The translations under genes were made by a program, and so were the position numbers. A DNA stretch of 35,056 nucleotides. Source: Hydrogenophilus sp. (GTDB taxonomy: Bacteria; Pseudomonadota; Gammaproteobacteria; Burkholderiales; Thiobacillaceae). The stretch covers positions 1 through 35,056 of the forward strand of contig DYFK01000027.1 of assembly GCA_020725265.1 (NCBI GenBank), in the 5' to 3' direction. Below are positions 2,386 to 13,529 of the stretch, in pieces. The notes under the pieces were generated by a model that ran no database searches, was not told the DNA's origin, and saw only the letters and a list, made by a program, of their open reading frames with translations. Numbering within the stretch: the first letter of the stretch is position 1; each line of letters starts with the position of its first letter.

Positions 2386-3276
2386 TCATCGGCATGCGCC
2401 GACCGAGTCTTCCGCGCAAATTCGGCCATCCGGCCATTCCGCCTTACCCAGCCGGGCGCCGTCGAGACGGGTTCCGGTCAGCGTCGCGCTTTTCAGCACC
2501 GCGAAGCGGAGATCGGCATTGCTCAGATCGGCGCCGCTCAGATTGGCTTCGGCCAGATGGGCGCCGGACAGATTGGCGCCGTTGAGCCGGGCGTCGCGGA
2601 GGTCGACGCCCCGGGCATCGACATAGGCCAGATCGGCGCCGGCCAGATCGGCGCCGCGCAGCCGGGTGGTTTCCAGGATGGCATTGCGGGCCGGGATATT
2701 CGGAGCCGACAGACCGGTCTTGTCGCAGCCGCGCCAGTTCACCGATGCCGCCAGCGGAGCTTCGCAGTTGGTTTCGAACGCCTGGCGCAGGCCGACCTGG
2801 AGTCGGGTTTCCTCGGGGTCGTTCGTTTGCGCCCACCAGATCCCGATCCCGATCACCAGCAGCAAGGCCAACGCGATCAACAGGCTCCAGGGACGCGGGT
2901 GCCGGGTTTGCGCCGCCTGTAACAGCGCCTGGGTGCGGACATGGTCGCGCGACACCGAAAGACGCGCGATTTCGTCGGCGGCGGGATCGCGGATTTCCGG
3001 AACTTCGTCGGCGGCGGATGTGTGGCGCCAGCGTTGCCGTGCCTTTTCGCGCTCGTCGCGCCAGGACGGATCGTCGGCGGCCGGGAGGCGTTCGCCGGTA
3101 CTGGGCCGGGGCTCGAACTGGCCGCTCTCGGCGATGCTCAGCCAGTCGGTCTCGTTCAGACTGATTTCCCAGGCGAGCGTGATGCGGCCGCTTTGCAGTG
3201 ATTCCTCGATCTGTGGACCCGGAAACGGGCCATAGACCTTGCCTTCATGCCGGAGATACCAAAGTGGCTGTGTCAT
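2386..3276 (-). CDS. GYF_2-domain / pentapeptide-repeat single-pass membrane protein
   Basis: A 296-residue protein of unknown role. Residues 1-50 (PLWYLRHEGKVYGPFPGPQI, then several Trp) form a GYF_2-like domain, a fold that usually binds proline-rich peptides. A charged linker leads to one hydrophobic segment at about 130-148 (SLLIALALLLVIGIGIWW). After a Cys-containing stretch come pentapeptide repeats at about 204-278 (LRGADLAGADL, LNGANLSGAHLAEANLSGADL), expected to fold as a right-handed quadrilateral beta-helix. Likely topology is GYF domain in the cytosol and repeats in the periplasm. The frame is open for another 70 codons upstream, but ATG 3276 is chosen because the domain begins there and the upstream codons run through a terminator hairpin. 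It precedes the SpoU methyltransferase gene. Confidence 0.8.
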   Translation of the reverse strand: MTQPLWYLRHEGKVYGPFPGPQIEESLQSGRITLAWEISLNETDWLSIAESGQFEPRPSTGERLPAADDPSWRDEREKARQRWRHTSAADEVPEIRDPAADEIARLSVSRDHVRTQALLQAAQTRHPRPWSLLIALALLLVIGIGIWWAQTNDPEETRLQVGLRQAFETNCEAPLAASVNWRGCDKTGLSAPNIPARNAILETTRLRGADLAGADLAYVDARGVDLRDARLNGANLSGAHLAEANLSGADLSNADLRFAVLKSATLTGTRLDGARLGKAEWPDGRICAEDSVGACR

Positions 3277-3321: not shown

Positions 3322-3350
3322 AAAAAAAAAGCCCGGTTGGAGAACCGGGC
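3322..3350 (-). terminator. Strong intrinsic terminator of the candidate sRNA
   Basis: A perfect 8-bp stem GCCCGGTT/AACCGGGC (3331-3338 and 3343-3350) with a 4-base loop is followed on the minus strand by nine T (3330-3322). No other minus-strand gene lies upstream that it could terminate before the promoter at 3433-3461. Confidence 0.85.
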
Positions 3351-3426
3351 TGAAATCCACCAAAGGAGGAGGATGGAGGAGACAACACTGATAACGCTCA
3401 GGGAAATAAACGTTGGGATCAGTGTT
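3322..3426 (-). ncRNA. Candidate small RNA (or attenuated leader) with anti-Shine-Dalgarno-like stretch
   Basis: Seen: a transcript starting about 3426 would open with a stem-loop whose arms are 3426-3418 plus 3414-3411 and 3396-3384 (AACACTGAT pairing with ATCAGTGTT, extended by CGTT/AACG past a 3-base bulge). Next is a CU-rich stretch, CTCCTCCATCCTCCTCC (3380-3364), complementary to Shine-Dalgarno sequences. Part of this stretch can sit in the loop of a small AUCC/GGAU hairpin (3374-3371 with 3358-3355). The RNA then ends in a strong terminator. A good promoter is placed correctly upstream. Known: CcsR/'cuckoo' sRNAs expose CCUCCUCCC motifs. Alternative: a transcription attenuator for the gene starting at 3276, 46 bases downstream. 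No Rfam search was possible. Confidence 0.5.
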
Positions 3427-3432
3427 ATAAGA

Positions 3433-3461
3433 ATTATCTAATATAGTTAATTGCCGATCAA
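3433..3461 (-). promoter_or_regulatory. Sigma-70-type promoter for the candidate sRNA
   Basis: On the minus strand, a -35 box TTGATC (3461-3456) is separated by exactly 17 bases from a -10 box GATAAT (3438-3433). This predicts a start near 3426, the first base of the 5' stem-loop. The local sequence is markedly richer in A and T than its surroundings. Confidence 0.6.
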
Positions 3462-3578: not shown

Positions 3579-5624
3579 ATGAGCACCGTGAATACCTCGA
3601 AAATCCGGACCCTGGCACTGGTCGGCCATGGCGGCGCCGGCAAGACAACCCTGATTGAAAACCTGCTGGCCGCTGGCGGCGCGATTCCCGTCGCCGGGTC
3701 GGTGGAACGCGGTACCACGGTCTGTGACTACGATCCCCGGGAAAAGGCTCATCTGCATTCGCTCAAGGTCGCGGCCGCCCATCTCACGCATCGCGATTGT
3801 CTGGTTCATCTACTCGATACGCCGGGGTACCCCGATTTCATGGGCCAGGCGCTGTGCGCGCTGGATGCCGTGGAAACCGTACTGGTCGTGATCGACGCCC
3901 GCAAGGGCATCGAGCTGACCACGCACCGCATGATGCATTGGGCACAGACGCGCAAGCTGTGCCGCGCCATCGCGATCAACAAGATCGACGCGCCCGATGT
4001 CGATCTGCCGGCGTTGCTCGAGGAAATCCAGAGCGCGTTCGGACGCGAGTGCCTGCCCATCAACCTGCCGGCCGGCAACGGTGCCCGGGTGACCGACTGT
4101 TTCTTCAACCCGGGCGGCGAATCCGATTTTTCCTCGGTCGCCGATGCCCACCAGGCACTGGTCGATCAGGTCGTCGAGGTCGACGAGGCGTTGATGAATC
4201 TTTATCTGGAGCAGGGCGAGATCGAACCCGGCCAACTGCACGCGCCGTTCGAGCGCGCGCTGCGCGAGAACCATCTGGTGCCGGTGTGTTTCGTGTCGGC
4301 CACGACCGGCGCCGGCATACCGGAACTGCTCGACGTCATGGTCCAGCTTCTGCCCAACCCGACCGAAGGCAACCCGCCACTGTTCGTCAAGGGCGAGGGC
4401 GAGGACGCGCGTCCGCTGCGCGCCGAGCCCGATCCGGAAAAACACGTGCTGGCGCATGTGTTCAAGATCGAGATGGATCCCTATGTCGGCCGGATCGGGG
4501 TGTTCCGCGTGCATCAGGGCACGGTCACGGCGGATTCCGCGCTGTACATCGGCGAGTCGCGCAAGCCGTTCAAGGTCGGCCATCTGTTCCGGCTCCAGGG
4601 TAAGCAGCTGGAGCCGGCGGAGGCGTGCGTGCCGGGCGACATCTGCGCGGTGACCAAGGTCGATGATCTCGGTTTCGACGTGGTCCTGCACGACGCTCCG
4701 GAAGACGACCACATCCACATGAAGGCGCTGGAATTTCCGCATGCGGTGTTCGGGCTGGCGGTCAGCCCCAGGAAGAAGGCCGATGTCGACAAGCTGTCCG
4801 AGGTGCTGCGCAAACTGACCGCCGAGGATCCCGGCCTGCATGTCGAACACGATCCGACCACGCACGAAGCGGTGATCCGCGGTCTCGGCGAAATGCATCT
4901 GAAAAGCGTGCTGGAAAAGATGCGCGAACAGTTCCGGCTGGAGATCGATACCCATCCACCCAGCATCCCCTACCGGGAGACGCTGACGGCGCCCGCCGAA
5001 GGCCATCACCGCCACAAGAAGCAGACCGGTGGCGCCGGCCAGTTCGGCGAGGTCTTCCTGCGCGTCGAACCGTTGCCGCCGGGCGGCGGGTTCGAGTTCG
5101 TCGACGCGGTCAAGGGCGGCGTCATTCCCGGCCAGTTCATTCCGGCGGTGGAGAAGGGCGTGCGGCAGGCCATGGCCACCGGCGTGGTCGCCGGCTATCC
5201 CATGCAGGACATCCGGGTCACCGTTCACGACGGCAAGAGCCACAGCGTCGACGGCAAGGAAGTGGCGTTCATCAGCGCCGGCAAGCGTGCTTTCATCGAG
5301 GCCGCGATGCAGGCCAGGCCGATCGTGCTGGAACCCGTGGTCAACATCGAACTGACCGTGCCCGAGGCGTTCATCGGCGATGTCAGCGGCGACCTTTCCG
5401 GCCGGCGCGGCCAGATCACCGGTCACCAGAGTGGGCGCGGCGGCATGCTGGTGGTTCAGGGCCAGGCGCCATTGGCCGAACTGGAGAACCTGCAATCGCG
5501 CCTGAAGGCGCTGACCGGCGGACAAGGCTCCTATACCCTCGAATTCAGCCACTATCAGCAGGTGCCGCCGAACGTCCAGCAACAACTGGCGGCACGTCAC
5601 CAACCGGTGTCCGACGAGCAATAA
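3579..5624 (+). CDS. Elongation factor G-like translational GTPase (EF-G2 type)
   Basis: A 681-residue GTPase with the five-domain layout of EF-G. The G domain has the P-loop GHGGAGKT (16-23), G3 DTPGY (80-84) and G4 NKID (134-137). Domains II-V follow, including domain III with GLGEMHLKSVLEKMREQF and domain IV with the Gly-rich HKKQTGGAGQFGEV. Switch I reads ERGTTVCDYDPREKAH rather than the EF-G RGITI. G3 has Tyr84 where EF-G has the His required for GTP hydrolysis. Both changes are typical of the separate EF-G-like subfamily (cd04170 type, as in Thermus EF-G-2), whose job is unsettled. It is a single gene, not in a str operon, ending at a terminator. It should not be annotated as the main translocase FusA. 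Confidence 0.9.
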   Translation: MSTVNTSKIRTLALVGHGGAGKTTLIENLLAAGGAIPVAGSVERGTTVCDYDPREKAHLHSLKVAAAHLTHRDCLVHLLDTPGYPDFMGQALCALDAVETVLVVIDARKGIELTTHRMMHWAQTRKLCRAIAINKIDAPDVDLPALLEEIQSAFGRECLPINLPAGNGARVTDCFFNPGGESDFSSVADAHQALVDQVVEVDEALMNLYLEQGEIEPGQLHAPFERALRENHLVPVCFVSATTGAGIPELLDVMVQLLPNPTEGNPPLFVKGEGEDARPLRAEPDPEKHVLAHVFKIEMDPYVGRIGVFRVHQGTVTADSALYIGESRKPFKVGHLFRLQGKQLEPAEACVPGDICAVTKVDDLGFDVVLHDAPEDDHIHMKALEFPHAVFGLAVSPRKKADVDKLSEVLRKLTAEDPGLHVEHDPTTHEAVIRGLGEMHLKSVLEKMREQFRLEIDTHPPSIPYRETLTAPAEGHHRHKKQTGGAGQFGEVFLRVEPLPPGGGFEFVDAVKGGVIPGQFIPAVEKGVRQAMATGVVAGYPMQDIRVTVHDGKSHSVDGKEVAFISAGKRAFIEAAMQARPIVLEPVVNIELTVPEAFIGDVSGDLSGRRGQITGHQSGRGGMLVVQGQAPLAELENLQSRLKALTGGQGSYTLEFSHYQQVPPNVQQQLAARHQPVSDEQ

Positions 5625-5733: not shown

Positions 5734-7410
5734 ATGAGGCTTGCCCGGATAGTGCCGATCCTGCTCCCGCTCGCGATGGTGGGAGCCTCCGCATTCGCCC
5801 AGAACGTGCCCGGCGGCTTGTTGCCGGGCCAGATCGAGAAACAGTTCCGGGAGCCGCCGACGCCGCGCCCGGCGCCACTGGCCCAGCCGTCCTCGCCGCC
5901 GCCGGTTTCGAGCGTGCCGGCCGGTGCCGAGAGCGTGCGCTTCAGGCTGGAACGGGTCGAGCTGGAAGGGCTCGATTTCGTGCCCGCCGGCCGTTTCGAT
6001 TCGATGCTCCGCGTCGAGGCCGGCAAGGAGATTTCCATCGTCGACCTGTACGCGCTCGCCGACCGACTGACCGCCCGGTTGCGCGCGGACGGCTATCTGC
6101 TCGCGCGGGTCATCGTGCCACCGCAGGACATCGCCGATGGAGTCGCCCGGCTGCGCGTGATTCGCGGTCATGTCGCGGCGGTCCGGATCGTTGGCGACGT
6201 TGGCGAAGGCGCCGCCCGCATCGGCAATTACGCCGAACGGATCCGGGCCACGAAACCGCTCACCGCTACCGCGCTGGAACGCTACATGCTACTGATCAAT
6301 GATCTGCCCGGCGTGTTCGCCACCGCGACCCTATCGCCCTCGCGCCTGGAAGCGGGCGCCGCCGACCTGGAAGTGCGGGTGCAACGCCGCAAGTGGAGCG
6401 CCGGAGTGTCGGTCGACAATCGCGGTGGCGGCTATCTGGGCGACTGGCGGGTGATCGCCGACGCGGCGGTCGCCGACCTGCTGCGCGAGGGCCAGAACAG
6501 TTCGATCAAGGTGGTGGCCAGTCCCGGTGGCGAACTCGCCTATCTGGCCGCGCAGCACGAGGAACCGATCGGCGGGGAGGGCGGACGTCTGGGCATCAGC
6601 CTGACCGCGACCCGCGCCGAACCGGACGAACGGACCTTCATTCCGCTCAATCTGGAAACCCGTTCGCAAGCGCTCGGACTGACCTACAGCCATCCGCTCA
6701 GGCGTGGCCGGCACGACAACCTCGGCGTGCGCGCCGGCCTGTCGCTGCACAATGGCGAGGAATCGGTATTCGGCATCCGCGACCGCCAGGACAAGCTGCG
6801 TTCACTGCGTCTGGGCGCGACCTGGGATGCCGTCGATGCCTGGCGCGGCACCAATCTGGTCGACGTCGAGCTGAGTCGGGGATTGTCCGGCCTGGGCGCT
6901 TCCGGCAACGGCGATCCGATGCTGACCCGCGCGGATGGCAAGGTCGATTACAGCAAGTTCGCGTTGTTCGCCGCGCGCGTTCAGGATTTCTCGGCCAACT
7001 GGTCGCTGCTGGCCGCGTTGTCCGGCCAGTACGCGTTCGACAACTTGCTGGCCTCGGAACTGTTCGGTTTCGGAGGCGAGCCGTTCGGGCGTGGTTATGA
7101 TCCATCCGAGCTGGTCGGCGATCACGGCCTCGCCTTCAAGGCCGAACTGCGTTGGCGCGGCCTGGCGCCGGTCGCCGGCGGCATGCCCATCCGTGTCCAC
7201 GGCTTTTATGACATCGGCCGCGTCTGGCGACGCGATGCCATGCCGGCCGACGCGCGGGATTCCGCCGCCAGCATCGGCCTGGGCGCGCGCGTCGAAGTCA
7301 AACGCGATGTCTCGCTGTCGATCGAGGTGGCCAAGCCGCTGACCCGTGATGTCGCCTCGGAGGGCGATCGTTCACCGCGTCTGTACGTCGGCCTGTCGGC
7401 GCGCATGTAG
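5734..7410 (+). CDS. Two-partner secretion outer-membrane transporter (TpsB, ShlB/FhaC/HecB family)
   Basis: Outer-membrane beta-barrel that exports the TpsA protein encoded next. The 558-residue protein starts with a signal peptide (MRLARIVPILLPLAMVGASAFA, cleavage near 22). A Pro-rich linker follows, then a POTRA_2-like region at about 70-155 containing DGYLLARVIVPPQDIADGVARL and RLRVIRGHV. A second POTRA-like stretch leads into the barrel from about 210, opening with SAGVSVDNRGGGYLGDWR. The GRGYDPSELVGDHG segment near 455-470 matches the conserved L6-loop RGY motif of FhaC-like Omp85 proteins. The next gene begins 38 bases after its stop codon. The pairing with TpsA is established for this family and supported by adjacency. 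Confidence 0.93.
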   Translation: MRLARIVPILLPLAMVGASAFAQNVPGGLLPGQIEKQFREPPTPRPAPLAQPSSPPPVSSVPAGAESVRFRLERVELEGLDFVPAGRFDSMLRVEAGKEISIVDLYALADRLTARLRADGYLLARVIVPPQDIADGVARLRVIRGHVAAVRIVGDVGEGAARIGNYAERIRATKPLTATALERYMLLINDLPGVFATATLSPSRLEAGAADLEVRVQRRKWSAGVSVDNRGGGYLGDWRVIADAAVADLLREGQNSSIKVVASPGGELAYLAAQHEEPIGGEGGRLGISLTATRAEPDERTFIPLNLETRSQALGLTYSHPLRRGRHDNLGVRAGLSLHNGEESVFGIRDRQDKLRSLRLGATWDAVDAWRGTNLVDVELSRGLSGLGASGNGDPMLTRADGKVDYSKFALFAARVQDFSANWSLLAALSGQYAFDNLLASELFGFGGEPFGRGYDPSELVGDHGLAFKAELRWRGLAPVAGGMPIRVHGFYDIGRVWRRDAMPADARDSAASIGLGARVEVKRDVSLSIEVAKPLTRDVASEGDRSPRLYVGLSARM

Positions 7411-7448
7411 AGCCGGCCAAGCGAACCATAAGGATGAGGAAAAACACC

Positions 7449-10400
7449 ATGCCGACCACGCAAACCCGATTCCGACGCCGGCGCGACTGGCGCCTGAATG
7501 CCCTGACCGCCGCCTTGTGCGCGGCCGGTTGCTTCAGTCCGCTGGTACAGGCCGCGCCGACCGGTGGCGTGGTGCGCGCCGGCGATGCCCGCATCGAGCA
7601 GCAGGGCAACCTGACCCGGATCGAACAGACCAGCGCCCGCGCGATCATCGACTGGCGCGGTTTCGACGTCGGCGCCGCCGAGGCGGTGCGCTTCGACCAG
7701 CCATCGTCGCGGTCGGCGACGCTGAATCGCGTCACCGGCGACCAGCTTTCCCGGATCGATGGCCGGATCAGCGCGGACGGTCAGGTTTTCCTGGTCAATC
7801 CAAACGGCGTGATCTTCGGCGATGGCGCCAGCATCGACGTCGGCAGCCTGTTCGTCAGCACCGCCAACATCGCCAATCCGGACTTCATGGCCGGCCGCCT
7901 GAAATTCGATCAGCCCGGCCGGCCCGACGCCAGCATCCGCAACGCCGGCACGATCACCGCCGCCGAGGGCGGCCTGGTCGCCCTGGTGGCGCCGCATGTG
8001 CGCAACGACGGCGTCATCGCCGCGCGCCTGGGCAAGGTGGCTCTGGCTGGCGGCGATCGCTTCACGCTGGATCTGTACGGCGATCAGTTGATCCGTCTGG
8101 AAATCGGCGAGGCCGATGCGCGCGCGCTACTGGAAGCGCAACCCGGCCGCGTCGACCAGTCCGGCCGCATCGAGGCCGACGGCGGCCAGGTGGTACTGGT
8201 CACCGCCGCCACCGGCAAGCGCGCCCTGGATGGCGTCATCAACCTCGATGGCATCGCGCAGGCCGACAGCGTACGCGAGCAGGGCGGTCGCATCGTTCTG
8301 GAAAGCGCCGGCGAGGTCCGCGTCAGCGGTGAATTGCGCGCGCGCGGTCTTGGCGAGGGTGAGGTGGGCGGCGTCATCGATGTGCGCGGCGAGCGGATCA
8401 CGTTGGCTGGCGCCCGTGTCGACAGCAGTGGCCAGGCCGGCGGCGGCCGGGTTCACGTCGGCGGCGGCTGGCAGGGCGGCGAGGGCCGTCGGGCGCGCGA
8501 GGTCGACGTCGACACGGGCAGCCGCCTGCATGCCGACGCGCTCGGTCGCGGCGATGGCGGCGAGGTCGTGGTCTGGGCCGATGGCCGTACCGGCTATGCC
8601 GGCACCATCACGGCGCGTGGCGGCGAACAGGGTGGCGATGGCGGCCGGGTCGAGGTGTCCGGCCTGGTCAGACTCGATTTCGCCGGCCATGTCGACGCCG
8701 GCGCCAACCTCGGCCTGGGCGGCCTGCTGCTGCTCGACCCCGACAATCTGCTGATCGGACCGGCGGAAGCCGCCGTGATCGCGCGCATCCTGCGCACCGG
8801 CACCACCACCCGCCTGCAAGCCAACGAGGACATCGAGATCAACGCCGCCATCGACGGCCGCGGCGGCCGCGCCGGCGGCGGCCTCGACCTGGAGGCCGGC
8901 CGCGACATCCGGATCAATGATTACATCGTCACCCGGGATGGCCGCGTGCGCCTGTACGCCGGCACCGGCACCGTCACCGTGGCGCCGGACAAGGCGGTGT
9001 TCGCCGGCGGCGGCGGGATCGACATCGTCACCGGCGGCTCGCTCGACGCCGGTGCGTTGCTGACCAGCGGCGCCCTGTCGCTGACCTCGACCGGCGGCGC
9101 CGTGCGCGTCGGCGCGCCGATCGAGGCCGGCAACGGCGATCTGGTGGTGCGCGCCGCCACCGATGTCGACATCGACGCGCCGGTGGTCAATCTCCGTTCC
9201 GGCGCCAAGGTCGATATCGAGGCCGGTGGCGACCTGCGCGTTTCCGCCCAGATCGACGGGCTCGATGGCGTGAGTGGCGGTTCCGCGCGTCTGGTCGCCG
9301 GTGGCGATCTGACCCTGTCGAGCTGGGTCGCGACCCAGGACGGCGCGGTCACCGGCCAGTCGGGTGGGCGCATCGTGGTCGGCGCCGACGGTGGCGTGCT
9401 CGCCGGCAATGCGCCGGTATCGCTCGATGCCGGCGAAGACCTCGAATTGCACGGTATCGTCCATTCGCTGGGTGCCGTCGCCTTGCGCTCGCGCGACGCC
9501 GGCGTCGTGCTCGGCGCGCCGTTCCTGGCCGACAGTGGCGCGCTGACGGTGACGGCCGGCCTCGATGTCAGCGTCGACGCGCCGGTGCTGACGCCGCGCT
9601 CCGGAGCGCCGGTCCACATCGAGGCCGGTCGCGATCTGCGGGTGAACGCGCAGATCGACGGACTCGGCGACCAGACCAGCGGCTCCGTCACGCTGAAGGC
9701 GGGGCGCGATCTGATCGGCAACGCCTCGGTGGCGACCCGCGACGGCGCCATCGACGTTCGCGCTGGCGGCCAGGTCTGGCTCTCGCCGGAGACCGGCCTG
9801 CATGCTGGCTCGGCGCCGATCACGGTGCGTGGCGTCTCGGTCCGTACCGGCATGCTGGATACCAGCGGTGCGCTCGACGTACAGGCAACCGGTGGCGATC
9901 TGGTCATCGGCGGCGCCATGCTGCTGGGTACCACGACCCAAATCCAGACCAGCGGCAATCTCGATATCCAGCAGCCGATCGTCATGGCCGATGGCGCCTC
10001 GCTGACCCTGAGCGCCGAGCTCGATCTCGGCGTGCGCGCGTTCCTGCGCGTTTCCGGCGTTGGCGCCATCCACCTCGCCGGTGGCCGCGATGTCCATCTG
10101 GACGCGCCGGTGTTCAGTGACTTCGGCGCGATCTCGGTCACCGCCGGCCGCGATGTCACCGCCGGATCGAATGGCGGCCTGTACGCCGGCTCCGGTCCGG
10201 TCGGTATCGATGCCAACCGGAACCTGACCGCGCCGGTGGTCATGACCGGCGGGCCCATCACCCTGACCAGCGCGACCGGCTCGGTCGATCTGGCCGGTCA
10301 GGTGCGTGGCGCCGGCGCGCCGGTCGCCATCTCCGCGCCCGGCGCCATCACGATCGGCCAGCCGGTGGTGATCGGTAACGGCGGCAGCCTGAATCTGAAT

Positions 10401-13400
10401 GCCGGCGGCAATCTGACGGTCAACGCGCAGTTGCGCGGTGGTGTCGCCAGCCGCATCGAAGCGGATGCCGGCGGCGCGATCCAGGTCAACGACGACATCG
10501 CCGTCGACAGCGGCTGGATCCGCCTGTTCGCCGGCAATGAGCTCGGTTTCAGTCTGGGCGGCGGCGCCTATGCCGGCGCCGGCGGCATCCACCTCTACGC
10601 CGGCGGCAACCTGACCACCGGCAATCTTTCCGCCGCGGGCGGCGCCAGCCTGACCAGCGATGGCGCCTTGCGCGTCGCCCGGCCGATCGGTGCCGACGTC
10701 GGCGCGCTCGATCTGTACGCGGCCGGCAGCCTGTGGATCGACGCGCCCATCGCCAATGTCGGCGGCGGCCTGAGCGCGCGTTCCGGCGGCGATCTGTTCG
10801 TCAACGCCCAGATCGACGGCATCGGCACGTTCCTTTCGCTCGATGCCGGTGGCAGTCTGTACGTCGATGACGAAGTCGCCAGCGCCAATGCGCCGTTGCA
10901 GGCGCGCGCCGGCGGCAGCGTGCATCAGACCGCCAACGGCGTCGACGAATACGGCGCTCCGCTGACCCGGCAACTGCGTTCCGGCGACGCGCCGCTGACC
11001 GTGATCGCCGGCGGCAATCTGACCACCGGCTCGATGGTCACCACCTCGACCCTGGACGTGATTTCCACCGGTGGCCATATCCATATCGCCACGCCGATCT
11101 ACGAAACCACCGGCGATACCCGAATCCTGGCGGCGGGCGACATCCGCGTGAACCAGGTTGTCGCCAACAACACCTCGGGCGCCGATCTGTTCATGCAGGC
11201 CGGCGGCAATATCCACGTCGATGCCAAGATCGGTCCCTGGGATCGCAGCGACGCCACCTATCCGACCCTGAACCGCGATGCCACGCCGGGCGGGCGGATC
11301 ACCCTGATCTCCGCGGGCGACCTGCTCATCAACCAGGAGATCGCGACCTATCTGGATACCCTGACCGGCATCGACGATGCCGCCATCTCGCTGACCTCGA
11401 CCGCCGGCGGAGTCCACCTGGCGCCCAACCTCAAGGTGGTTTCCGACGGCGGCGCGATTTCCGTCCGTTCACATGCCGACCTGGAAAATGGTCCGGCCAT
11501 CACCGTGTTCGATGTCGCCCATCTGAACGCGGCGCCGACCACCGGCTATTTCACCACCGGCGCGTTGTCGCTGACCTCGACAGGCGGCGATGTCCACATC
11601 AACCAGATCATTCCCAATACCACCGGCTCGGTGACCATCCGCGCGGCCGACGGCTTGTACATCAACCAGCGCATCTACACGGCGGACGGCGACATCAATC
11701 TGTACGCGGGCGCGGGCGGCATCTGGCAGAACCCGATGGCCGATCCCGAGCCCGACGCGAACCTGAACACCACCAGGATTTCCGACATCGACCCCGCGCG
11801 GGGCAACCTGTACATGGAAGCGGTCGGCGACATCCGGCCGCAAGTCGTGCGCGCCGATGGAACGCTGACCATCAAATCGACCGCGGGCGCCATCATCGGC
11901 GGCGAGATCGGGAGCAGCCGGGACAGCGCCGCGGTCAATCTGGGCATGCCATCCAGCGTGCGTCTGGCGGGTTACACCGGCATCCATGGCTTCAATACCA
12001 CGTCCTCGTCGGATGTCGCGGCGATTTCCAGCGTCGGATCGGTCACCGGCCTGGGGGTCTATCAACCGGGCAATCTGCTGATCATCGCCGGCCAGGACAT
12101 CGTCAATCCGAGTGCCTCACTGGGGCATGCCGCCAGACTGTACGCCGGCCGCGACATCACGCTGTCCGGCTTCGTCGCCATCGATTTCGAAGCCCGCGCC
12201 GGCGGCGATTTCACGGTCACCGGCAACGCGTTGGCCAATGATGGTCCTACCTACTTCTATAACCTCGCCGGTTCGATGGATGTCAGCGCGGGCACGGATC
12301 CCTTCACCGGCCTGGGTGGCGTGACCGTCGCCGGTGTCAACGCGCCGACCTGGGGTGGGGCTACGCCGGGAGGCGGTGACATCACGTTCAATACCAGCGG
12401 TGGCAATAGGGTGCTCTGGGTCAGCGGCGATGGCGGCATGATCGCCAACGCGACCGGCAACATCACGTTGCCGATCACGCACGTTTCCTATGCCCTGGAT
12501 TTCATCAACCACGACTTCTGGGCATCGACGCTGTCCCAGCAAATCACCCAGCCGTTCGATCTGCATGCCGGCGGCGACATCTCGCTGCAACGCTTGCAAA
12601 CCGTCGGCGTGGTGTCCATGGTCTCGACCGGTGGCGACATCCAGATCGATCACACCATCGGCGCCCATGTCACGGTCGATCCCACCCAGGGCTGGAATCC
12701 GGACGACCTGGGCGTGGCCAGCCTGTACCTGCGCGCCGATCAGGGCGACATCCGCATGCATGAGGCGCGCGCCGAGGGCGACATCACCATCGCCGCGCCG
12801 AACGGCACTGTCAGCTTCCTGGGTGGCCTGAACGGCATCGAGGCCGGCGGCAACCGCTCGGTCACCGATTCCGGTGGCGCGGTCGTCGTTGGCGCCAGCA
12901 TCGACGCGACGCCTGTTAACCGGATTCCGGGGCCGATTGCCGTGGCACCGGCGGTCGCGGTCGGCCCGACGCTGGCCGGCGGGCCCGGTGGCCCGGTGCC
13001 GGGAGCCTTGCCGCCGGGGGCGCCGGCGGCGCCGCTGTTCGCCAACGCGGGGCCGGGCGCCACGCCAGGCGCGCCGACGCCGAGCGGTGCCGGGACCGGA
13101 CCGGTCGGTCCGACCGGGGCCACGGTCAGCGCTGGCACGCCTGGCGCGATCGGCGCCGGCGCGACGACCACACCGGGCGGTCTGGCGACTGGCGCCGACA
13201 GTTTTGGCGAGATTTTCGTCGCCGATTCCGCCGTCGAACAACCGGCGCGATCCTCCGAACAGACCGGCACGGAGACCGCCGAAGCCGCCGAGGGTGGGGC
13301 CAGTGCCGAGGAAACCCAGCTCGCCGATTCGTCGTCGGCGGAGGAACGCGGCGAGGGTGCGGCCGTGCTGGCCGCCATCGAGGAAGACGACGAGGAACGC

Positions 13401-13529
13401 CGGAAACGCGAGTCTGGCGCCGCGCCGCTCGATGCCGCCTATCTGGCCTTCGCCGGTGGCCGGGGGGATGCCAGGGAGAAGGACTTCGGCCGTGGCGACC
13501 CGGTCGAGCTCAATCGTGTCCGGCCCTGA
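7449..13529 (+). CDS. Filamentous-haemagglutinin-type two-partner secretion exoprotein (TpsA)
   Basis: A 2026-residue secreted or surface beta-helix protein. ATG 7449 is chosen over 7434 because GAGGA sits 8 bases ahead of it. A signal peptide with a basic n-region (RFRRRRDWR) ends near VQA-AP. The TPS secretion domain follows (GGVVRAGDARIEQQGNLTRI, then NPNGVIFG with N117), which TpsB recognises. Residues about 300-1820 are Gly/Asp-rich repeats (AGGDL, VNAQIDG, GALSLTSTGG) expected to form a long right-handed beta-helix. Residues about 1823-2026 are Pro/Gly/Ala-rich, then acidic (AIEEDDEERRKR). No recognisable toxin or protease domain is seen at the C terminus, so an adhesin or matrix role is more likely than contact-dependent inhibition. 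Its 3' end overlaps the WD40-caspase gene by 14 bases. Confidence 0.92.
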   Translation: MPTTQTRFRRRRDWRLNALTAALCAAGCFSPLVQAAPTGGVVRAGDARIEQQGNLTRIEQTSARAIIDWRGFDVGAAEAVRFDQPSSRSATLNRVTGDQLSRIDGRISADGQVFLVNPNGVIFGDGASIDVGSLFVSTANIANPDFMAGRLKFDQPGRPDASIRNAGTITAAEGGLVALVAPHVRNDGVIAARLGKVALAGGDRFTLDLYGDQLIRLEIGEADARALLEAQPGRVDQSGRIEADGGQVVLVTAATGKRALDGVINLDGIAQADSVREQGGRIVLESAGEVRVSGELRARGLGEGEVGGVIDVRGERITLAGARVDSSGQAGGGRVHVGGGWQGGEGRRAREVDVDTGSRLHADALGRGDGGEVVVWADGRTGYAGTITARGGEQGGDGGRVEVSGLVRLDFAGHVDAGANLGLGGLLLLDPDNLLIGPAEAAVIARILRTGTTTRLQANEDIEINAAIDGRGGRAGGGLDLEAGRDIRINDYIVTRDGRVRLYAGTGTVTVAPDKAVFAGGGGIDIVTGGSLDAGALLTSGALSLTSTGGAVRVGAPIEAGNGDLVVRAATDVDIDAPVVNLRSGAKVDIEAGGDLRVSAQIDGLDGVSGGSARLVAGGDLTLSSWVATQDGAVTGQSGGRIVVGADGGVLAGNAPVSLDAGEDLELHGIVHSLGAVALRSRDAGVVLGAPFLADSGALTVTAGLDVSVDAPVLTPRSGAPVHIEAGRDLRVNAQIDGLGDQTSGSVTLKAGRDLIGNASVATRDGAIDVRAGGQVWLSPETGLHAGSAPITVRGVSVRTGMLDTSGALDVQATGGDLVIGGAMLLGTTTQIQTSGNLDIQQPIVMADGASLTLSAELDLGVRAFLRVSGVGAIHLAGGRDVHLDAPVFSDFGAISVTAGRDVTAGSNGGLYAGSGPVGIDANRNLTAPVVMTGGPITLTSATGSVDLAGQVRGAGAPVAISAPGAITIGQPVVIGNGGSLNLNAGGNLTVNAQLRGGVASRIEADAGGAIQVNDDIAVDSGWIRLFAGNELGFSLGGGAYAGAGGIHLYAGGNLTTGNLSAAGGASLTSDGALRVARPIGADVGALDLYAAGSLWIDAPIANVGGGLSARSGGDLFVNAQIDGIGTFLSLDAGGSLYVDDEVASANAPLQARAGGSVHQTANGVDEYGAPLTRQLRSGDAPLTVIAGGNLTTGSMVTTSTLDVISTGGHIHIATPIYETTGDTRILAAGDIRVNQVVANNTSGADLFMQAGGNIHVDAKIGPWDRSDATYPTLNRDATPGGRITLISAGDLLINQEIATYLDTLTGIDDAAISLTSTAGGVHLAPNLKVVSDGGAISVRSHADLENGPAITVFDVAHLNAAPTTGYFTTGALSLTSTGGDVHINQIIPNTTGSVTIRAADGLYINQRIYTADGDINLYAGAGGIWQNPMADPEPDANLNTTRISDIDPARGNLYMEAVGDIRPQVVRADGTLTIKSTAGAIIGGEIGSSRDSAAVNLGMPSSVRLAGYTGIHGFNTTSSSDVAAISSVGSVTGLGVYQPGNLLIIAGQDIVNPSASLGHAARLYAGRDITLSGFVAIDFEARAGGDFTVTGNALANDGPTYFYNLAGSMDVSAGTDPFTGLGGVTVAGVNAPTWGGATPGGGDITFNTSGGNRVLWVSGDGGMIANATGNITLPITHVSYALDFINHDFWASTLSQQITQPFDLHAGGDISLQRLQTVGVVSMVSTGGDIQIDHTIGAHVTVDPTQGWNPDDLGVASLYLRADQGDIRMHEARAEGDITIAAPNGTVSFLGGLNGIEAGGNRSVTDSGGAVVVGASIDATPVNRIPGPIAVAPAVAVGPTLAGGPGGPVPGALPPGAPAAPLFANAGPGATPGAPTPSGAGTGPVGPTGATVSAGTPGAIGAGATTTPGGLATGADSFGEIFVADSAVEQPARSSEQTGTETAEAAEGGASAEETQLADSSSAEERGEGAAVLAAIEEDDEERRKRESGAAPLDAAYLAFAGGRGDAREKDFGRGDPVELNRVRP
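9162..10880 (+). repeat. Internal repeats of the TpsA beta-helix
   Basis: Three related segments begin at about 9162, 9564 and 10728. Each follows the order [ID]DAP, a short variable stretch, an EAG or RSG turn, a [GR]DL strand, then a near-identical NAQIDG (SAQIDG in the first). The first two are 402 bases apart and still similar at base level, which suggests tandem duplication. Shorter GALSLTSTGG and AGGNLTTG units recur elsewhere in the gene. Confidence 0.7.

Follow-up and report, generated by a model that had tools for sequence, protein, structure and literature searches.

The window (the whole stretch of 35,056 nucleotides analysed here) carries a small-RNA unit at 3322-3461, located on the minus strand between a pentapeptide-repeat gene and a divergent elongation factor G-like gene (Table 1). 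A promoter TTGATC-N17-GATAAT, a 5' stem-loop, two CTCC-type blocks and a nine-T terminator had been proposed in an earlier note, and all of them were found at the places claimed on the minus strand. The sequence CTCCTCC occurs twice (first bases 3381 and 3371) and nowhere else on either strand of the window. The predicted RNA (3426-3322) folds at -39.4 kcal/mol against a shuffle mean of -17 (sd 2.61, n=200; z -8.58), and none of the 200 shuffles folded as low. Promoter consensus alone was not above chance (one match in the first 10 kb, where 0.9 would be expected), and terminator-like sites were not either (four found, 5.8 expected). The unit stands above chance because of its Rfam match (E 9.5e-12, whole window) and its conservation, and the small-RNA unit is real.

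Table 1. Positions of the small-RNA unit and its neighbour genes in the window.
Feature	Position	Strand	Basis or remark
-35 box TTGATC	3456..3461	-	TTG at same distance in 34/34 copies read
-10 box GATAAT	3433..3438	-	17-base spacer to -35 box
18-bp dyad TATTAGATAATTCTTATA, overlaps -10 box; proposed operator	3426..3443	strandless	comparative sequence
5' hairpin of RNA, begins at predicted first base	3384..3426	-	fold; pairing kept across 63 leaders
RF02278 core, double hairpin	3323..3384	-	67.6 bits
Site 1, anti-Shine-Dalgarno, TGTCTCCTCCA	3374..3384	-	named after Bordetella S17 site 1 (PMC11722255, accessible part)
Second CU-rich block TCCTCCTCC	3365..3373	-	sequence
Intrinsic terminator: stem 3351-3330 and nine T (3330-3322)	3322..3351	-	pattern and fold
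Downstream pentapeptide-repeat gene	2386..3276	-	ATG at 3276, 45 bases past T run
Divergent elongation factor G-like gene	3579..5624	+	found in 11/33 host-family loci scanned

The core (3323-3384, minus strand) belongs to Rfam family RF02278, "Betaproteobacteria toxic sRNA", with 67.6 bits against the curated cut-off of 50 (E 9.5e-12), and it matched positions 1-64 of 64 of the covariance model. The double hairpin, the CU-rich site and the intrinsic terminator are all present, and the host is betaproteobacterial by its relatives (Betaproteobacteria, Burkholderiales, Thiobacillaceae). The runner-up family, anti-hemB, reached 36.5 bits, which is under its own cut-off of 49.5. This match came from the Rfam search that the earlier note had suggested, and together with the conserved promoter it bears out the reading of a complete sRNA unit whose anti-Shine-Dalgarno stretches most likely pair with ribosome sites. 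The idea of a new CcsR-like type fared worse: it is ruled out by the strong RF02278 score and the sub-threshold score of the next family, and no CcsR-type family appeared in the Rfam scan. A gammaproteobacterial host, also considered possible there, is rejected on the named relatives; among named sequences, those nearest to the EF-G-like gene are from Betaproteobacteria, Thiobacillaceae, Gallionellaceae, Parasulfuritortus and others. When 61 genomes (the host and 60 relatives) were searched with RF02278, 50 had a match with E <= 0.001 and 40 were above the cut-off, and the 14 control genomes gave no match. A contig of the same genus (G003:C9) shares its unit with a sequence from an uncultured Burkholderiales bacterium (L041).

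The CcsR/cuckoo RNAs of Rhodobacter have CU-rich anti-Shine-Dalgarno loops and are linked to a DUF1127 gene. The window RNA is like them in its CU-rich anti-Shine-Dalgarno stretches, but its neighbours are the EF-G-like and pentapeptide-repeat genes and linkage to DUF1127 was not seen. Toxicity in the name of RF02278 reportedly goes back to Kimelman 2012. According to the accessible text of two reports, the family is named after growth inhibition in E. coli (PMC5688073, PMC7011215). Members described there are ncS03, ncS05, ncS27 and ncS62 of B. cenocepacia, with a shorter form of ncS27 arising by processing (PMC5688073), and four RNAs of Herbaspirillum (PMC7011215); bdhR1 and, for Herbaspirillum, Hsnc059, 063, 086 and 107 belong to the family, while ncS35 is described as a different RNA with no Rfam match (PMC5760752, accessible part). 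The window unit shares with these members the double hairpin, the CU-rich stretches and the terminator, and differs in two features missing from the model, a candidate sulfur-regulon dyad that covers the -10 box and a 43-nt 5' hairpin that is conserved. In the accessible part of the report on Bordetella pertussis S17 (S17L/S17S), a 190-nt, Hfq-dependent RNA, from which RNase E generates a stable 67-nt form, represses BP2158 via site 1 (PMC11722255). The site 1 region and the pairing at ribosome sites are alike in the window RNA, for which we also propose a long primary RNA with a stable core; S17 differs in that it responds to Bvg mode and sits between other genes, and that part of the report describes no dyad (PMC11722255). 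The sRNA is thus a new member of a known family; its own control looks new, and the sequence comparisons below support a new variant of the control circuit.

Among the 37 genomes of the host family, 34 copies could be read; G005 gave no match, and G016 and G020 gave only matches of at most about 31 bits. All 34 copies keep the -35 TTG at one exact spacing, and their -10 form is GANNAT, with element positions A9 and T10 nearly invariant. A dyad TATTAGA-N4-NCTNATR covers the -10 box up to the predicted start, and its left half is TATTAGA in 33 copies and TATAAGA in one. On both sides of the -10 box the bases vary no more than within it, a constraint that goes beyond what a sigma-70 promoter requires. 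The dyad is the newest feature of the unit and was absent from the earlier note. Although a 366-aa open frame passes through the unit, frame length is not conserved and the distance from dyad to core varies from 41 to 68 bases in steps that are not in threes, so the conservation does not reflect coding potential and a coding explanation is rejected. Across the order, dyad and RNA occur together in 49 of 399 genomes belonging to eight families and 13 genera (12 of the 12 host-family genomes drawn), and the reversed dyad pattern with the RNA in 0 of 399. RF02278 copies of several other families have no dyad, for example the eight read of nine in genome G043 (loci L115, L117, L119, L120, L123, L124 and L126), where two of the nine matches are about 380 bases apart; since copies outside these lineages are without it, the dyad is not a general property of the family. 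The own genome also has a second RF02278-like match (C6:692-750) with 40.4 bits, below the cut-off, which has GGTCTCCTCTCTCTCCTCC and a terminator; no dyad was found in the stretch inspected upstream of it.

The leader between dyad and core folds into a hairpin in all 63 distinct leaders compared. Counting the first ten positions from the start base, 518 of 630 cells were paired, whereas 1000 column shuffles gave a mean of 462.5 and a maximum of 482 (the leaders are related, and this count is not a probability), and slid versions gave 185-282 paired cells. Exchanges among A-U, G-U and G-C pairs were seen, so that pairing is kept, as a covariation check asked for in the earlier note had required of the 5' hairpin. 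One subgroup (L121, L201, L203, L205-L207) pairs poorly at the hairpin base. The 5' hairpin ends where the Rfam core starts, and by analogy with S17 trimming may take place at this border. Its loops are often C/U-rich in relatives (CCTCCC, TTTCCC, TTCCCC), as at about 3400-3406 in the window; such a loop could be a third pairing site.

The dyad is also found apart from the sRNA. In 80 family genomes TATTAG-N6-CTNATA, with perfect dyads counted on both strands, was matched 326 times and the reversed pattern 15 times; 77 of the 80 genomes had at least one match to the former. Loci fetched from the matches listed contained 77 perfect dyads, 33 at the sRNA and 44 elsewhere. Among these matches, 37 of the 44 adjoin ArsR-tolC, rhodanese, sulfur-transport or redox genes: 17 sit past the end of the ArsR gene and ahead of tolC, 10 before rhodanese, four before YeeE/YedE sulfur transporters, two before C_GCAxxG_C_C proteins, two before a short protein (the piece tested had no Pfam match), one before a metallo-hydrolase with a rhodanese-like match further on and one before a peroxiredoxin, with seven given no gene label; the labels are BLAST matches to named pieces and the queries were picked from the same loci in related genomes, so the tally is one of recurrence and not of unbiased enrichment. 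Four loci (L162, L168, L169, L175) carry a label that we take to be DUF302, and the one piece tested had no Pfam match.

In the own genome no exact dyad was found other than that of the sRNA. Allowing up to two mismatches gave 11 matches against three for the control, the sRNA site being counted on both strands, and the sites other than the sRNA have two mismatches to the pattern. They lie before tolC beside the ArsR gene (C36:40990), before a 1-Cys peroxiredoxin (C34:57552), before a 259-aa protein without Pfam match whose homologues in G013 and G002 also have the dyad (C19:108870) and, as a weak site, before a gene that is presumably SulP (C36:109967); some others have no sulfur link. In relatives the same dyad marks both the regulator locus and sulfur genes; in the own genome it does so only with two mismatches. 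Because the exact dyad of the own genome is confined to the sRNA, our confidence in sulfur control is slightly lower.

The candidate regulator is an ArsR protein of 105 aa (C36:40539-40853). In the own genome the ArsR gene, starting at C36:40539, is followed by the dyad and then by tolC, an arrangement that is the most frequent one for non-sRNA dyads in relatives among the matches listed. Of the 37 host-family genomes, 36 have this ArsR at 85-100% identity, and G050, which belongs to another family and has dyad and RNA, has it at 88%; in G040, G046 and G057, whose sRNA copies are without the dyad, identity is 79-84%. Its best solved relatives are BigR, YgaV and HlyU, then the 6o8l group (which we take to be SqrR) and NolR. 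Both sensor cysteines align in five alignments (BigR, YgaV and three HlyU-type chains), so an ArsR-group regulator with both of them is present in the genome. The protein is not BigR itself by the NCBIfam equivalog (79.8 bits, cut-off 155), and we therefore call it only BigR/SqrR-like.

As far as the accessible text of the reports goes, sulfide or polysulfide releases BigR from the -10 region that it recognises in its operon (PMC5823870), YgaV binds where RNA polymerase does on its own promoter (PMC9774250), and SoxR, a repressor that has the same two cysteines, responds to sulfane sulfur (PMC10451225). A dyad placed over the -10 box fits the logic of BigR and YgaV, and we infer that ArsR binds it. 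Compared with the persulfide-type regulons of BigR, SqrR, YgaV and SoxR, the nearest solved relatives of ArsR and the two conserved cysteines are alike, while the score below the BigR equivalog cut-off, another dyad and an sRNA as target are different; our literature search found no sRNA as target of regulons of this type.

The window RNA may also be a standard RF02278 sRNA with a dyad that serves a different regulator, such as a response regulator of LuxR/NarL type, in which case sulfur would not be the signal. GacA-type sites (TGTAAG-N6-CTTACA) have the same spacing as the dyad. The dyad is tied to ArsR only by neighbourhood (17 of the 44 perfect non-sRNA dyads among the matches listed) and gene content, further ArsR genes are present in the host genome, and the RsSqrR site as published in the accessible text, ATTC-N8-GAAT, is unlike the dyad. 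We nevertheless consider this explanation unlikely, because the rhodanese, YeeE/YedE and metallo-hydrolase genes next to the dyad are of the kinds that BigR/SqrR-type regulons typically contain, and this ArsR adjoins the dyad and is nearly universal in the host family.

Our preferred reading, which we hold to be probable, is a sulfide- or persulfide-induced RF02278 sRNA under a BigR/SqrR-like ArsR that represses mRNAs, including those of some sulfur genes, by way of their Shine-Dalgarno sites. With low sulfane sulfur, ArsR would sit on the operator over the -10 box and the RNA would be off. On exposure to sulfide, persulfide or polysulfide the two cysteines of ArsR would become oxidised or bridged, freeing the -10 box and inducing an RNA of about 105 nt with its transcription start near 3426. 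Once made, this RNA would be capped by its 5' hairpin and probably trimmed to the 62-nt double-hairpin core, with presumed roles for Hfq and RNase E. TGTCTCCTCCA and the CU-rich loop would then pair with purine-rich Shine-Dalgarno regions, so that a set of mRNAs is translated less. Betaproteobacteria commonly carry RF02278 RNAs, and a switch-on signal is reported for few of them in the accessible literature; our search found no report linking an sRNA to sulfide or sulfane sulfur in the RF02278 context. Comparative sequence now gives a candidate operator, repressor, chemical signal and testable target genes, and if the reading is true, the sRNA tunes translation as sulfide or sulfane sulfur rises.

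A search of 100 family genomes for TGGAGGAGACA, which complements site 1 exactly, with an ATG within the next 1-9 bases gave 50 rows for 48 places in 38 of them; a few of these places are the sRNA's own complement, others have no open frame, and G087:C100 was left out. A frame of at least 60 codons opens at 31 of these places, 17 with a sulfur label and 14 without. The sulfur-labelled candidates are an SCP2-like gene in six cases (in the own genome behind the YeeE/YedE pair, C35:43116), a cytochrome c gene in five (with the sulfide-dehydrogenase flavoprotein directly behind in the one tested by Pfam, L330), O-acetylhomoserine sulfhydrylase in three (one tested), a YeeE-type gene in two (one tested) and a rhodanese in one. 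Superoxide dismutase, a DUF302 protein and four genes that we take to be glmM are among the 14 others. With a shorter complement, the starts of propionate-CoA ligase and RnfE/RsxE are also hit in the own genome. Only 7-8 of the 11 complement bases are present at a YeeE/YedE-linked gene of four relatives (L154, L156, L166, L236). Predicted duplexes with three own-genome targets came out at -26.4, -30.1 and -29.4 kcal/mol, and with one invented plain Shine-Dalgarno control at -19.7, too small a set to carry weight. GGAGGAGAC-N2-10-ATG was matched 104 times against 62 for GGAGGAGCA-N2-10-ATG in 23 genomes of the host genus (some of the 104 being the complement of the sRNA itself) and 81 against 75 times in 14 others. 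At 105 GGAGGAGA-N4-9-ATG sites in nine genomes the next two bases were CA 11, AA 12 and TG 11 times, and the genome-wide tests gave no clear excess of extended targets. The predicted targets are thus leads, drawn from complementarity.

A broad growth-inhibiting RNA, slowing all translation by general Shine-Dalgarno pairing and having no specific targets, would agree with the naming of the family after E. coli growth inhibition (PMC5688073, PMC7011215, accessible parts), with the match of site 1 to the general Shine-Dalgarno sequence and with the lack of a genome-wide extended-target bias. We give this explanation rather little chance, because the same gene classes recur with the 11-base complement, and the accessible part of the report on S17S describes defined targets and no toxicity to E. 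coli in exponential growth (PMC11722255).

If the sRNA is sulfur-induced as we prefer, it would trim the translation of sulfur and energy genes, some of them in the same regulon, which would make an incoherent feed-forward loop. Since some predicted targets lie in operons that carry the same dyad in relatives, the RNA may damp its own response. We can extend this only tentatively to a sulfide/persulfide-responsive sRNA with a BigR/SqrR-like repressor in at least eight families of the order, which by feedback on the ribosome sites of sulfur genes (those for the YeeE/YedE transporter, flavocytochrome c sulfide dehydrogenase and O-acetylhomoserine sulfhydrylase, and the gene that follows the transporter) might be an RNA arm of the reactive-sulfur response.

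The earlier note had offered an attenuator as alternative. On this view the pentapeptide-repeat gene would have promoter, hairpins and terminator as its leader and would depend on read-through for its expression. That gene starts 45 bases past the T run, and in 18 of 33 host-family loci scanned it was found next to the unit on the same strand; it was not found in the other 15 (some with short flanks) or in any of 21 other-family loci with dyad and RNA, and RF02278 members elsewhere are described as free sRNAs in the accessible literature. Constant linkage to the downstream gene is thus absent, within the limits of flank length at some loci, a cis attenuator is rejected as the main function and we judge the leader explanation highly improbable, though read-through into the gene could occur as a by-product. 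The GYF domain once suggested for this gene was not confirmed, as Pfam found pentapeptide repeats only.

A function linked to EF-G is dismissed because the divergent gene was found in 11 of 33 host-family loci scanned. An Rfam scan of nine named EF-G loci (L032-L040 of 80), five of which had more than 4 kb upstream, found no RF02278, and dyad and RNA were found by pattern in four of the 80 loci, many of whose contigs are short or distant. Beyond the EF-G-like gene, the window has a secretion-pore-like ORF of 558 aa (5734-7410, plus strand) followed by a repeat-rich adhesin-like ORF of 2031 aa (7434-13529, plus strand), and judged from their sequences the two look like a two-partner secretion pair.
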